Part shown: piece after piece, positions 7,193-8,803 of the stretch
Position numbering within the stretch: the stretch's first letter is position 1
Layout of the letters: each line of letters starts with the position of its first letter
Assembly: GCF_003364215.1 (NCBI RefSeq)
Contig: NZ_NXLU01000002.1
Location: 248,001-312,000, forward strand
Reading direction: 5' to 3'
Origin: Helicobacter cholecystus
GTDB taxonomy: Bacteria; Campylobacterota; Campylobacteria; Campylobacterales; Helicobacteraceae
Length of the DNA stretch: 64,000 nt
Notes under the pieces: model-generated
What the model saw: only the letters and a program-made list of their open reading frames with translations
The model's database searches: none
What the model was told of the DNA's origin: nothing
Position numbers and translations under genes: made by a program

Positions 7193-7420
7193 ATGGCAAA
7201 AATTAAAGTGGAGTTCTTGGGTCCAATTGGTCTAGAGGCTAAAGAGTTTGAAGTGCAAGATTTACACGAATTAAAAAATAAACTTCAAGAAATTGAAGTT
7301 TTACACGAATGGCTTAAAATCTGTGCAATTGCCTTAAATGATAAAATTATTGAGGATCTTAATATGCCTTTAAGAGATGGGGATCAGCTCGTTTTACTTC
7401 CTCCAGTATGCGGAGGCTAA
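7193..7420 (+). CDS. moaD: Molybdopterin synthase sulfur carrier subunit
   Basis: 75-residue ubiquitin-like protein ending in the Gly-Gly tail (PPVCGG) that carries the thiocarboxylate sulfur for molybdopterin synthase. DGDQLVLLPPVCGG is the family C-terminus. Good ribosome binding site (AAGGAGAG) 11 bp after moeA. The partner MoaE is not in the window. Confidence 0.93.
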   Translation: MAKIKVEFLGPIGLEAKEFEVQDLHELKNKLQEIEVLHEWLKICAIALNDKIIEDLNMPLRDGDQLVLLPPVCGG

Positions 7421-7510: not shown

Positions 7511-7630
7511 ATAGAGTTTTCAATAGAGTTTTCAATAGAGTTTTCAATAGAGTTTTCAATAGAGTTTTCAATAGAGTTTTCAATAGAGTTTTCAATAGAG
7601 TTTTCAATAGAGTTTTCAATAGAGTTTTCA
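7511..7630. repeat. Ten perfect tandem copies of a 12-bp unit beside the dif-like site
   Basis: Exactly ten uninterrupted copies of ATAGAGTTTTCA (120 bp), in an otherwise non-coding gap between moaD and xerH. No open reading frame with a start covers the array. The array ends 4 bp before the dif-like site. The unit contains GTTTTCA, which is also the inner part of the right arm of that site, so the array may be derived from, or bound by, the same factor; that part is inference. The period of 12 is not a helical multiple. Confidence 0.97.
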
Positions 7631-7634
7631 ATTT

Positions 7635-7661
7635 GGTTTGAAAATTATGGTTTTCATAACT
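7635..7661. other. difH: Chromosome dimer resolution site (difH-like) for XerH
   Basis: Imperfect inverted repeat: left arm GGTTTGAAAA (7635-7644), 6-bp centre TTATGG (7645-7650), right arm TTTTCATAACT (7651-7661). The arms match at 8 of 11 positions when the left is extended by one base, and the right is the better match to the GTTATGAAAA-type XerH half-site. Geometry (arms of about 11 bp around a 6-bp centre) is that of Xer sites. It lies 71 bp upstream of xerH, the usual place for XerH/difH in this phylum. XerH resolves chromosome dimers here at division. Confidence 0.8.
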
Positions 7662-7701
7662 AAATAGGAATTCTTTTCTCTCAGAAAACTAAACCAAATA
7701 C

Positions 7702-7707
7702 TATAAT
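7702..7707 (+). promoter_or_regulatory. -10 box of xerH
   Basis: TATAAT, 25 bp before the xerH ATG and about 40 bp after the dif-like site. Binding of XerH to that site could therefore influence its own transcription; this is inference. Confidence 0.5.
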
Positions 7708-7732
7708 AATAAAAAATAAAAGTGGAGGATCT

Positions 7733-8803
7733 ATGCGTTATACACTTGATTGTCATTGTAATTTTGATTTTACGCTACTCTTTTGGATAACACGTTTTAT
7801 CCGTTATAAGCTCACAACATTATCAAATAAGAATGTTCAAGATAAACAACGCTTTGCTTTCATGGTAGGGAAACTCCAACGAGGTGTAAAAAATATTGCA
7901 GAACTTGAAATAATATGCAAAGAGGCTAGAAATGCTGGATTAATAGGGATTGCCACCTACTCTAACCCACTCTTAAGACTTTATCCCTATCTGTGTGGTT
8001 TGGGGTTACAAAGTATGAAGGAAATTGATGAGGAGTGTTTGAGTGATTTTCTTATGATTGAAGGCAGTGGGCTAAGTGCGGCAAGTAAAAAAAATTATCG
8101 TATTGCCCTTATTAGTTTCTTTGGCTATATTGATAAACAAAATGAAAGTTCCAATGGACAAAGCTTTGTTTATAACATTGAATTGAAAAATATTGGAGGG
8201 ATTCGGGGAAAAAGTGGACAAAAACTTCCAGCATATATGAATGAGGCAGAAATACAAAAATTTTTACAATGTATTGATGAATTTGAACAATCAGATAAAA
8301 TTAATGCTAGAAATCGTCTTATTATTAAACTTATCATTTATACAGGAATTCGTGTAAGTGAAGCCCTTAACCTAAGATTAAAGGATATCTTTCCAGAGGG
8401 TGAAGTGTATTTACTTCAAATTCGTGGAAAGGGAGACAAAATGCGTATAGCAATGATTAAGCGTCAACATATTCAAAATCTGCTCAATGCATGGCTTGCT
8501 AAACGTAAAGAATTAGGAATAAAAAGCGAACTACTGATTTGCAACCAAAAAGGGAATGCTCTCACCCAAGCTTATATTTATAAGGTCGTTGATAGTATTC
8601 TTAGCTATGGAGGAATCTTTAAAGAAAAAATGGGGGCACATATGCTACGTCATAGTTTTGCCACCCTACTCTATCAAAAGAGTCAGGATCTTGTGCTTGT
8701 TCAAGAAGCATTGGGGCATGCTGATTTAAATACAAGTCGAATCTATACACATTTTGACAAAAATCGCCTTATGGAGGCAGCTAGCATTATGGATAATCTA
8801 TAA
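7733..8803 (+). CDS. xerH: Tyrosine recombinase XerH
   Basis: Single Xer recombinase of Helicobacter/Campylobacter type, resolving chromosome dimers at difH. 356 residues with an N-terminal SAM-like core-binding domain (to about 165) and a catalytic domain carrying Arg207 (TGIRVSEAL), Lys233 (RGKGDK), His303-x-x-Arg306 (HMLRHSFATLLYQ), His329 (LGHADLNTS) and the nucleophile Tyr338 (SRIYTHFDK). The LWITRFIRYK-like N-terminus also recalls H. pylori XerH. Start chosen at ATG after GGAGG. All catalytic residues are present, so it should be active. Its target site lies directly upstream. Confidence 0.96.
   Translation: MRYTLDCHCNFDFTLLFWITRFIRYKLTTLSNKNVQDKQRFAFMVGKLQRGVKNIAELEIICKEARNAGLIGIATYSNPLLRLYPYLCGLGLQSMKEIDEECLSDFLMIEGSGLSAASKKNYRIALISFFGYIDKQNESSNGQSFVYNIELKNIGGIRGKSGQKLPAYMNEAEIQKFLQCIDEFEQSDKINARNRLIIKLIIYTGIRVSEALNLRLKDIFPEGEVYLLQIRGKGDKMRIAMIKRQHIQNLLNAWLAKRKELGIKSELLICNQKGNALTQAYIYKVVDSILSYGGIFKEKMGAHMLRHSFATLLYQKSQDLVLVQEALGHADLNTSRIYTHFDKNRLMEAASIMDNL

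Follow-up and report, generated by a model that had tools for sequence, protein, structure and literature searches.

In Helicobacter cholecystus, the difH site beside the recombinase gene xerH directly touches ten identical copies of a 12-bp unit. With a probability that we put at about 0.58, this array is a recent, lineage-specific expansion of minisatellite type, in which the native flank of dif would have been multiplied through slippage or unequal recombination, in a region prone to duplication. The window analysed here is the whole stretch of 64,000 nucleotides, and its relevant features are the following.

7193..7420, + strand: moaD-like gene bounding the gap opposite xerH (match below the curated cut-off; gene end and gap conserved in the sister species)
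7511..7632, + strand: 12-bp tandem array (TRF, host-genome repeat census and family-wide search)
7633..7662, - strand: difH core in the 30-bp frame of PMC5241119, TAGTTATGAAAA-CCATAA-TTTTCAAACCAA (sequence, 56 other family loci and a nearby GC-skew sign change)
7633..7644, - strand: historic right, weaker XerH arm, adjoining the array (sequence; PMC5241119)
7651..7662, - strand: historic left, high-affinity XerH arm TAGTTATGAAAA (sequence; arm naming of PMC5241119)
7687..7699, + strand: possible degenerate right-arm-like stretch AACTAAACCAAAT (sequence inspection; low confidence, and not needed for the finding)
7733..8803, + strand: xerH, a single-chain Xer tyrosine recombinase of 356 aa (phmmer to PDB 5jjv_A)

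All ten copies of ATAGAGTTTTCA at 7511-7630 are exact, and the unit continues for two further bases (AT) to 7632, where array and difH core meet; TRF gives 10.2 copies, a 100% match and a score of 244. The initial annotation had placed ten identical repeats in a non-coding gap beside dif, and so they are: the array occupies part of the 312-bp gap between moaD, which ends at 7420, and xerH, which starts at 7733. The 4 bp that it had left between array and site fall away, since that spacing is set by the start chosen for the site, and the 30-bp frame, which is that of the XerH-difH crystal structure (PMC5241119), starts at 7633. Ten perfect copies imply a recent origin or homogenisation. The host assembly consists of 40 contigs, and short reads may have collapsed the array, so ten copies are perhaps a lower bound. 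A coding origin was rejected, as no ORF of at least 60 aa covers the array and the frames open throughout it have no credible start or context. RNA structure was rejected as well, the folding of array plus dif being no better than that of shuffles (z=0.6).

Judged from its sequence, the gene downstream of the array encodes a true XerH. The best PDB match of its product is H. pylori XerH (5jjv_A), over residues 14-354 with a phmmer E-value of 2.8e-119, it is the sole Xer gene matched in the host genome, and no NCBIfam model scores above cut-off for the protein. The core, with arms TTAGTTATGAAAA and TTTTCAAAC around a 6-bp centre, lies upstream, 70 bp from its end to xerH, close to both the recombinase gene and the replication terminus, and the GC skew changes sign nearby. 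Related dif sites have the same arms, and a site of the same kind is present at 56 other loci of the family, which bears out the earlier proposal that the array adjoins a genuine XerH/difH system. The systems of H. pylori and Campylobacter likewise have a single XerH, two arms with a 6-bp centre close to xerH, and a skew sign change in the vicinity, whereas a tandem array of this kind next to difH was seen in the host only among the genomes examined.

Two further observations concern the host's arms. The AACTAAACCAAAT stretch immediately precedes the presumed -10 box of xerH, TATAAT (7703-7708). A second dif-like site, TTGGAAAAGTTTAGTTTTCATAACTAA, whose left arm is perfect and whose right arm is weaker, is found in the intergenic region after rnhB (L108:5567-5593; G000:C11:27567-27593); it may be either an ectopic XerH site or a remnant. 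Avoidance of the dif arm across the genome was considered and dropped: the arm occurs 14 times against 48 for the reversed motif, yet a rearranged arm of the same composition is similarly low (10).

The array is unique within the part of the host genome that was surveyed. A repeat census of 753,721 of the 1,367,704 bases (55%) contains no other short-unit array of more than 3.4 copies; a 93-bp pair in the same census appears to consist of adjacent tRNA genes. The double unit has no other occurrence in the host genome, which excludes a dispersed repeat, and a phage origin was discarded as viral contigs hold no exact double unit. Because no second short-unit array in these 754 kb exceeds 3.4 copies, its placement at dif is very unlikely to be due to chance; by an after-the-fact estimate, about 20 positions in 754,000 would put the sole strong array against dif. 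Either mutation or selection thus ties the array to the site.

Across the family, a search of 121 genomes, one per species, with TATTGAAAACNNTATTGAAAACNNTATTGAAAA and up to 3 mismatches matched the host only (0/120 others), and the dif flanks of the relatives hold no comparable array, their longest short-unit arrays being about 4 imperfect copies. Both H. brantae and Ca. H. avistercoris can be aligned with the host over the end of moaD, dif and xerH, and they have the same gap without the array. The recent expansion proposed in the initial annotation is supported both by the perfect copies and by this absence from 120 relatives, two of which share the gap. Bacterial minisatellite or VNTR loci likewise have perfect or near-identical units arranged head to tail (12 bp in the host), in non-coding DNA and in one lineage, with no array at the same site in sister species; the host array differs from them in being the sole one in 754 kb and in touching a recombination core. 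The conservation beside the core that would mark an accessory array is not seen in any of the 120 other genomes.

Under the expansion reading, a short non-coding stretch bordering the right arm of difH would have served as the seed, and the array would have grown in place by slippage or unequal recombination, within a terminus and dif neighbourhood prone to repeated local duplication. The flank is favoured as the seed because the dif-proximal part of the last copy, GAGTTTTCAATTTGG, resembles the outer dif flanks of H. brantae and Ca. H. avistercoris (GTGATTTTAATTTGG, GGTTTTTATTTTGG). This comparison of three AT-rich sequences is modest evidence for growth of the array out of the native flank. 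No direct evidence of slippage at dif was found in the relatives.

Duplication around dif is observed in other species. Among 57 dif sites, the window included, the 34 kb lying within 300 bp of dif contain 5 left arms with at most 1 mismatch outside the site itself, against 0 in the 111 kb further away; two of the five belong to sister species, leaving about four independent cases. In six genomes of the genus, exact extra copies of TTAGTTATGAAAAC are rare and most are found near dif or xerH. In H. brantae and Ca. H. avistercoris, a direct repeat of 67-94 bp has two copies per genome that flank dif on either side, and a second dif arm follows at the xerH promoter.

L115:2136-2229 and 2428-2521; L114:2029-2095 and 2295-2361: direct repeats flanking dif (H. 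brantae, Ca. H. avistercoris)

These repeats look as though the dif neighbourhood was duplicated in tandem long ago and its second dif has since decayed to half. Two intact direct copies of dif are expected to recombine with each other, an established behaviour of Xer systems, so that only decayed copies would be left to see. Some of the enrichment of extra arms near dif may reflect selection rather than mutation, given the two copies at the xerH promoter.

In both sister species, the lone left arm lies right behind the presumed xerH -10 box (L115:2533-2561; L114:2437-2453), which makes it a candidate for XerH autoregulation. Other arrangements were noted elsewhere in the family. An inverted near-copy of dif about 10 bp from the site produces, in one genome, a long palindrome whose arms measure about 22 bp (L092, G096), and an extra exact inverted left arm lies 51-60 bp from dif in two others (L102, G109; L091, G004), that of G109 being part of a second dif-like site. 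Pairs of inverted dif-like sites about 127 bp apart occur away from the main dif (L111 and L112; G059:C49:190065-190218 and G063:C5:62480-62633), and several contigs in three genomes of one genus (G054, G056, G058) carry the dif-like sites TTTGAAAATAACGATTTTCATAACAAA and ATTGAAAATAAGACTTTTCATAACTAA.

On the - strand the array reads ACTCTATTGAAAAC, and TGAAAAC is common to every unit and to the local left arm. The initial annotation had recognised this motif, as GTTTTCA, in both unit and dif arm and is right on that point; its label of right arm is reversed in the published nomenclature, in which the window's + strand arm GTTTTCATAACTAA is the left, high-affinity arm TTAGTTATGAAAAC and the array abuts the right, weaker arm. 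The unit shares 7 contiguous bases and 8/14 positions overall with its own dif arm (P 0.02-0.04 for the run, 0.34-0.56 for identity), and 10 contiguous bases and 10/14 with the TTAGTATTGAAAAC arm of other genera (P 0.004 and 0.05 with periodic 12-mers from the window as control; 0.005 and 0.09 with shuffled units), these P values being post hoc and drawn from several arm types. The left arm is TTAGTATTGAAAAC in seven related dif sites and is nearly so in Campylobacter and Arcobacter (PMC3325230). Position T4 is kept in the unit, and G3 is replaced by C. The likeness appears to come largely from the common TGAAAAC core and is suggestive only as support for a half-site; the idea that the array spread from one is weakly supported by the shared core, and the unit fits the arm of other genera better than its own. 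Short arm cores show no general clustering or enrichment near dif in relatives.

The array, the sole strong one in 754 kb, stops at the edge of the XerH core, its units are oriented as the high-affinity arm and each contains TGAAAAC, which run counter to expansion alone and could reflect selection for a role related to dif or XerH. One such role, which we consider unlikely, is that of an accessory array in which weak, putative left-arm-like half-sites would hold XerH beside the weaker right arm and help to load or orient the synaptic complex. The retained T4 fits this role, as H. pylori XerH contacts T4 through the lysine K290 (PMC5241119) and the aligned host residue appears conserved (numbering inferred), as do the 10-bp run to the TTAGTATTGAAAAC arm type (P ~0.004) and the binding of H. 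pylori XerH to a single left arm, with a KD of 180 nM against 150 nM on full difH (PMC5241119). However, whole-arm identity is not unusual, G3 is lost, and neither the array nor an enrichment of arm cores near dif is found in the relatives. Moreover, a 40-bp difH is all that recombination requires in H. pylori (PMC3325230), so that an accessory array is not needed in that system; for this reason, and because no relative has it, the array is probably not essential to dimer resolution. Binding to adjacent units would be limited too: one arm and half the centre take up about 15 bp, and since the 12-bp pitch is shorter than the stretch covered by one XerH, neighbouring units could probably not all be filled at once. 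That a species-specific array of ten half-site-like units grew against the weak difH arm to serve as a built-in platform for loading XerH, giving a chromosomal Xer site an accessory array of its own, seems to us quite unlikely. The accessory or arm-type sites of other tyrosine recombinases (lambda Int, cer/psi) likewise place repeated or extended DNA by the core; in the host, the units resemble the recombinase's own arm. The lambda arm sites use a separate protein domain; at cer, PepA and ArgR act on about 180 bp (PMC5357621). The host array differs from all of these in its lack of conservation among relatives, and binding of XerH to it is putative.

The array could instead influence transcription, acting on xerH from upstream or forming part of a divergent - strand promoter, with copy number as the tuning element as in Helicobacter contingency loci. 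Its outer edge does form a - strand TTGAAA-16-TATAAT that matches at 11/12 positions (7535-7508) and reads away from xerH, and repeat length controls the H. pylori sabA promoter (PMC4081817), where a repeat tract upstream of a Helicobacter gene could likewise vary in length. But the region holds 2 promoter-like matches against 1.5 in shuffles, and no sense-oriented gene lies just beyond the - strand promoter. Unlike the sabA rheostat, the host unit is 12 bp long and dif sits between array and xerH promoter, so that copy number leaves the spacing of dif and promoter unchanged; a transcriptional role is accordingly improbable. Scarcely credible is a signal for replication or translocation, in which the oriented, T-tract-containing array would slow or orient the fork or FtsK at dif. 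The array is oriented, unique and near the GC-skew sign change, as such a signal would be, but it is in no relative, and other occurrences of the unit core are few and show no obvious strand pattern.

The available text of PMC3325230, PMC5241119 and PMC5357621 makes no mention of a tandem array of this kind next to difH, and none of the papers in the library searched joins XerH, dif and tandem repeats. Among the relatives examined and, as far as their available text goes, these three papers, the array would be the first case of tandem repeats adjoining a chromosomal XerH site. If its origin is mutational, the array and the sister-species dif duplications mark the dif neighbourhood as repeatedly duplicated DNA; if it is functional, the host would have a single-recombinase Xer system with an accessory array.
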